From assembly GCF_964019755.1 (NCBI RefSeq), contig NZ_OZ026469.1:310001-374000 (forward strand): 64,000 bases of DNA. The letters are read 5' to 3'. Numbering within the stretch: the stretch's first letter is position 1; every line of letters begins with the position of its first letter. Origin of the DNA: Spiroplasma endosymbiont of Polydrusus cervinus. Lineage in GTDB: Bacteria; Bacillota_I; Bacilli_A; Mycoplasmatales; Mycoplasmataceae. Of this stretch, positions 41,812 through 41,966 are shown piece by piece. The notes under the pieces are model-generated. The model was given only the letters and a program-made list of their open reading frames with translations, was not told the origin of the DNA and did no database searches. The position numbers were made by a program, and so were the translations under genes.

Positions 41812-41887
41812 TGGTCTTCTGTAAAGGACTTGGACCTTTGACCAACTGGTTAAGAACCAGTTGGTTACCCTACTGAGCCAACAGTCA
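41812..41887 (-). tRNA. tRNA-Lys (CTT), structurally degenerate
   Basis: 76 nt. Anticodon stem-loop is sound (ACTGG TTCTTAA CCAGT). The acceptor is poor: 5' TGACTGT against 3' ACAGAAG leaves mismatches at 2:71 and 3:70. The T-loop is TCCAAGT instead of TTCAAGT, and the D-stem (GGCTCAGTAGGGTAACC) lacks the usual GAGC partner. It may be a pseudo-tRNA. Confidence 0.65.
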
Positions 41888-41888
41888 A

Positions 41889-41966
41889 TGGTGCTCTGGC
41901 TAGAAGAATCGAACTCCCAACCTACTGATTACAAGTCAGTTGCTCTACCTACTGAGCTAAGCCAGT
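41889..41966 (-). tRNA. tRNA-Thr (TGT), abnormal acceptor stem
   Basis: Anticodon loop CTTGTAA, T-loop GTTCGATTC and D-arm are normal. The 3' strand reads AGCCAG-AG-CACCA, two bases longer than needed, and position 1 is A (ACTGGCT) instead of the expected G. Probably a recent insertion. Confidence 0.75.

Follow-up and report, generated by a model that had tools for sequence, protein, structure and literature searches.

A damaged and probably decaying pair of duplicated tRNA genes, Thr and Lys, in a six-gene tRNA operon of a Spiroplasma genome

Introduction

Bacterial tRNA pseudogenes that derive from redundant gene copies have an intact paralogue, decay of the acceptor, D and T arms and a low covariance-model score. 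The two genes described here, the first copies of tRNA-Thr and tRNA-Lys (Thr1 and Lys1), resemble such pseudogenes in that both have intact paralogues and in that Lys1 combines arm decay with a low score. On the other hand, they differ from them in that two adjacent genes decay inside an otherwise needed operon and in that the Lys copy has gained a perfect hairpin. The locus also resembles the translation apparatus of reductive Mollicutes, for which the excerpted text of PMC4014445 describes a loss of redundant parts, CCA ends that are generally encoded in the genes and an early loss of the CCA-adding enzyme; that text treats proteins, whereas decay of tRNA genes of the Thr1 and Lys1 kind is what this locus presents. 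The hairpin recalls template switching, a known source of hairpin-completing changes in which several substitutions jointly complete a reverse-complement stem (PMC8794818, in excerpt); the cases given there concern rRNA and stress a constructive role, whereas here the affected sequence is a decaying tRNA gene. A literature search for redundant-isoacceptor tRNA pseudogenes in Spiroplasma found no paper, and a search of a plasmid collection returned only ordinary tRNA similarity.

Results and discussion

The window, by which we mean the whole stretch of DNA analyzed (64,000 nucleotides, C1:310001-374000), belongs to a genome that consists of one contig of 1,120,781 bases. S. poulsonii and S. phoeniceum are relatives of this Spiroplasma; a pattern for the Thr tRNA of the Asn-Leu operon matched, among named records, only S. 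phoeniceum and S. poulsonii. Open reading frames of the window were listed with UGA read as Trp, and an Rfam search found 32 tRNA genes genome-wide. The tRNA operon of the window and its elements are as follows.

41709..42244, minus strand: tRNA operon Asn-Glu-Val-Thr-Lys-Leu(TAG) (ARAGORN and Rfam)
41812..41887, minus strand: tRNA-Lys copy 1, decayed, anticodon changed from TTT to CTT (ARAGORN Lys(CTT))
41841..41865, minus strand: perfect inverted repeat of 11 bp around a CTT loop (tRNA positions 23-47), where an anticodon arm of 5 bp would be
41884..41887, minus strand: junction left by a 7-nt deletion that took the 5' edge off the Lys acceptor stem (13-congener alignment)
41889..41966, minus strand: tRNA-Thr copy 1 with displaced CCA, A1 at 41966 (ARAGORN Thr(TGT) 41893-41966)
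41894..41895, minus strand: inserted AG (an AG duplication) between the Thr acceptor stem and CACCA, a gap in 13 of 13 congeners
42268..42273, minus strand: -10 element TATAAT of the putative operon promoter, conserved across the aligned upstream regions of 14 genomes
42292..42297, minus strand: -35-like element TTGCTT, separated from the -10 element by 18 nt

The order Asn-Glu-Val-Thr-Lys-Leu is kept in all 13 congeners. Upstream, the TTGCTT hexamer is identical in 10 of 14 genomes and reads TTGCAC or TTGCTA in the other four; together with TATAAT, it presumably serves as the operon promoter. An earlier note on this DNA had regarded the four tRNAs beside Thr1 and Lys1 as normal, which is true of Asn, Glu and Val; Leu(TAG) (41709-41793, minus strand), which is single-copy in the genome, carries one private change, C2 to T, giving a U2-G71 wobble, and scores 47.4 bits against 52.2-53.7 in the 13 congeners.

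Thr1, which is mildly damaged, scored 63.4 bits in Rfam. Twelve congeners have scores of 68.9-72.8 at this gene, and the remaining one (G013) has 33.8; in G013 the Thr gene of the six-gene operon was missed by ARAGORN and seen by Rfam. The two-base insertion beside the CCA and the A at position 1 that had been noted earlier are indeed present, the former as a duplicated AG before CACCA, and with G15 they are the private changes of Thr1 in the congener alignment. With AG inserted, the CCA does not directly follow the discriminator base, and Thr1 is the sole exception among the genome's tRNA genes, 31 of 32 of which end in CCA according to ARAGORN. The same note had suggested that decoding, if these were the only copies, would depend on other tRNAs or on end repair. 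We consider end repair unlikely, since the nucleotidyltransferase domain of the CCA-adding enzyme (PF01743) had no match in any of the 14 genomes, while 10 of 14 control genomes matched. This fits the encoded CCA ends and the early enzyme loss described for Mollicutes in PMC4014445.

A second operon lies at C1:375372-376042, 1.4 kb past the right end of the window, with some 23.6 kb separating it from the first. Its genes are Val, Thr(TGT), Tyr, Gln, Lys(TTT), Leu(TAA) and Gly. Val, Thr and Lys occur in both operons, while the other seven genes are single-copy in the genome. The second copies of Thr and Lys (Thr2, 72.8 bits; Lys2, 69.8 bits) are without private changes relative to the 13 congeners. 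The earlier concern that Thr1 and Lys1 might be the only copies is thus answered by the whole-genome search: because the second operon carries intact Thr2 and Lys2, neither damaged gene is the sole gene for its codons. Nor is AAG decoding tied to Lys1, since 13 of 13 congeners have TTT at that position, and on gene content, neither ACA nor AAG need rely on Thr1 or Lys1 to be decoded.

We also observed that Lys2 (G000:C1:375623-375698; L032:624-699, minus strand), the only intact Lys(UUU), has U27-U43 at the first anticodon-stem pair, which leaves a 4-bp stem. The same feature occurs in both Lys copies of genomes G002, G005 and G010; four-pair anticodon stems are a topic of the extended superwobble hypothesis, as presented in excerpts of PMC13092985.

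We next turn to the distribution of the damage. Private change events, counted by hand in alignment columns against the 13 congeners, numbered 12 in the 154 nt of Thr1 and Lys1. The remaining 11 genes of both operons, 861 nt in all, had 4, so that the density is 17-fold higher in Thr1 and Lys1 (Fisher p ~1e-7). Since the sequence is known from a single assembly, sequencing or assembly errors might give normal genes a damaged look. We judge this very unlikely, because the private changes concentrate in the two redundant genes; moreover, most of them are substitutions and patterned (the palindrome), and similar decay affects duplicated copies in four other genomes.

That wider pattern emerged from 182 Rfam scores across the two operons of 14 genomes. 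A score at least 10 bits below the gene median was found in 6 of 84 duplicated copies and in 0 of 98 others (Fisher p 0.009), and at a 20-bit cut the counts were 4 of 84 and 0 of 98 (p 0.044), where the counts are phylogenetically non-independent and both the cut-off and the choice of operons were set after the data were seen. The six decayed copies are Lys1 of the window's genome, Thr1 and Val2 of G013, and Val2 of G002, G011 and G001; Thr1 of the window's genome is not among them, since it lies 7.8 bits under the median and so does not reach the 10-bit cut. Three of these copies were located by Rfam as follows.

L048:1797-1866, L075:1511-1583 and L077:1516-1586: decayed duplicated tRNA copies, covering G013 Thr1 (33.8 bits), G013 Val2 (46 bits) and G002 Val2 (30.2 bits)

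In addition, the S. poulsonii record L101 has a second operon without an ARAGORN-detectable Val. In none of the 14 genomes were both copies of one isoacceptor decayed. That only duplicated isoacceptors decay and that one copy is always retained shows the action of relaxed selection. Like known tRNA pseudogenes, Thr1 and Lys1 have intact paralogues in their own genome, in the second operon, and a lineage-specific excess of changes compared to their orthologues. Together, these findings suggest, with a probability of roughly 0.88, that Thr1 and Lys1 are redundant second copies under relaxed selection that are becoming pseudogenes. On the sequence comparisons, such decay is what one would ordinarily expect where a fast-evolving genome has tRNA genes in duplicate; the apparent decoding problem is thereby resolved, and the locus offers a comparative example of spare tRNA gene loss in fast-evolving Mollicutes.

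The damage is heaviest in Lys1, which scored 29.5 bits compared to 67.1-72.7 in the 13 congeners and passes the RF00005 gathering score of 29 bits by the narrowest margin. Two acceptor mismatches, an altered T-loop and a poor D-stem had been reported for it, and the sequence bears out all three. The seven-pair acceptor stem is mismatched at 3-70 (A-A) and 2-71 (G-A) and has U-G at 1-72; the four-pair D-stem is broken at 11-24 (C-C) and 13-22 (C-A); and the T-loop starts UCC rather than UUC (C55 in place of U55 in U54-U55-C56). Altogether, 14 of 76 aligned positions depart from the congener consensus, compared to 2 in Lys2, and the differences at the 5' edge accompany one 7-nt deletion in the alignment with the 13 congeners. 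Since the gathering score is just passed and U35, U36, A73, G18, G19 and the encoded CCA are kept, Lys1 may have residual function.

Lys1 could instead be evolving into a working tRNA-Lys(CUU) that serves as an isoacceptor for AAG. The retained U35, U36, A73 and encoded CCA agree with this, and AAG is in use, with 95 AAG against 689 AAA codons in 19 long open reading frames of the window. However, Lys(UUU) is intact and AAG is the rarer of the two codons. In addition, the weakening of the three outer acceptor pairs, the two breaks in the D-stem and C55 are not what a functional tRNA would be expected to carry. At the damaged locus ARAGORN called Lys(TTT) in all 13 congeners, which is why the CUU anticodon is best read as a product of decay, and a pattern search for a CTT-type Lys anticodon arm matched 1 of 14 genomes, the window's own. 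A search of this genome with a short pattern for a second Lys(CTT) gene gave five matches, none of which besides Lys1 was shown to be a tRNA: one is Lys1 itself, one (L104) has no ARAGORN tRNA, and the other three places have no tRNA in the whole-genome Rfam search. We regard the origin of a new isoacceptor as very unlikely.

Lys1 has also acquired a long palindrome. The longest perfect inverted repeat is 11 bp in Lys1 compared to 5 in the congener consensus, and each of the changes G24C, C32T and G44T adds a pair to its stem. In a random simulation with 11 substitutions, 54 of 200,000 genes reached at least 11 bp (about 3 in 10,000), the pattern having been seen before testing. In the minimum-energy fold of Lys1, four acceptor pairs remain alongside a T-arm and the long hairpin, while the D-arm pairs are shifted. 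The palindrome was probably perfected by template switching during replication. At least two such events would be needed, because the three stem-completing changes sit on both arms; unlike in the model excerpted in PMC8794818, a single switch alone fails to account for all of them. The palindrome is perhaps a small natural case of hairpin-directed mutation. A terminator-like role for the hairpin was considered and dropped, since a T run is absent behind it. It is also very improbable that the Lys1 segment now serves, by co-option, as a hairpin RNA, such as a processing or stability element of the operon transcript, for although chance rarely gives a perfect 11-bp palindrome and the operon promoter is conserved, the palindrome occurs in one genome only, is no intrinsic terminator and is of a kind that template-switch mutation yields without selection (PMC8794818, in excerpt).

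If Thr1 and Lys1 are indeed decaying as spare copies, slippage would have produced the 7-nt deletion and the AG duplication, alongside point mutation and the template switching proposed above. Transcription of the operon would continue on account of Asn, Glu and Leu(UAG), whose genes are single-copy. The Lys1 product would not be usefully charged and the Thr1 product would probably be unable to present a proper CCA end, while Thr ACN and Lys AAR codons would be read by Thr(UGU) and Lys(UUU) of the second operon.

The two Lys copies of a genome are identical in 8 of 14 genomes; they differ at 1 site in 4, at 4 sites in G011 and at 14 sites here, while in G007 and G008 several changes are common to both copies, those of G008 being seven from the consensus. 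Few differences within genomes and more between them suggest copy-to-copy correction, as gene conversion would give. RecA had no match in three of the 14 genomes searched, namely the window's genome, G001 and G013. A decayed copy was present in 3 of 3 RecA-less genomes and in 2 of 11 others (p 0.027); when genomes with broken RecA genes were added to the former, the counts were 4 of 7 and 1 of 7 (p 0.13). Loss of RecA, by ending copy-to-copy correction, is thus a plausible but weakly supported contributor to the decay. MutS (PF00488), on the other hand, cannot explain why this genome differs, since it is absent from 14 of 14 genomes; both mutS and mutL are reported absent across Spiroplasma in excerpts of PMC8208695. 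A broader idea, which we consider improbable, is that in Spiroplasma lineages without RecA copy-to-copy correction of duplicated tRNA genes ceases, and that the freed copies decay and template switching reshapes them into transcribed perfect hairpins; if true, such hairpins within an essential operon would supply raw material for new small structured RNAs.

Other features of the region

An IS-like unit of a 201-aa and a 91-aa frame recurs in the window, with 201-aa frames at 16831, 28281, 34007, 39066, 40240, 58263 and 60309. Two units stand in tandem, 1174 bases apart, just past the 3' end of the tRNA operon. An rve integrase domain is present in the copy at 58263. Outside the window, ARAGORN called a tRNA-SeC(TCA) at G000:C1:403724-403799 (L035:325-400), beside Trp(CCA), which is most likely a tRNA-Trp(UCA) in a genome reading UGA as Trp. 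Finally, a purine riboswitch aptamer was found at window positions 63538-63637 on the plus strand, with 52.1 bits against an Rfam gathering score of 37.
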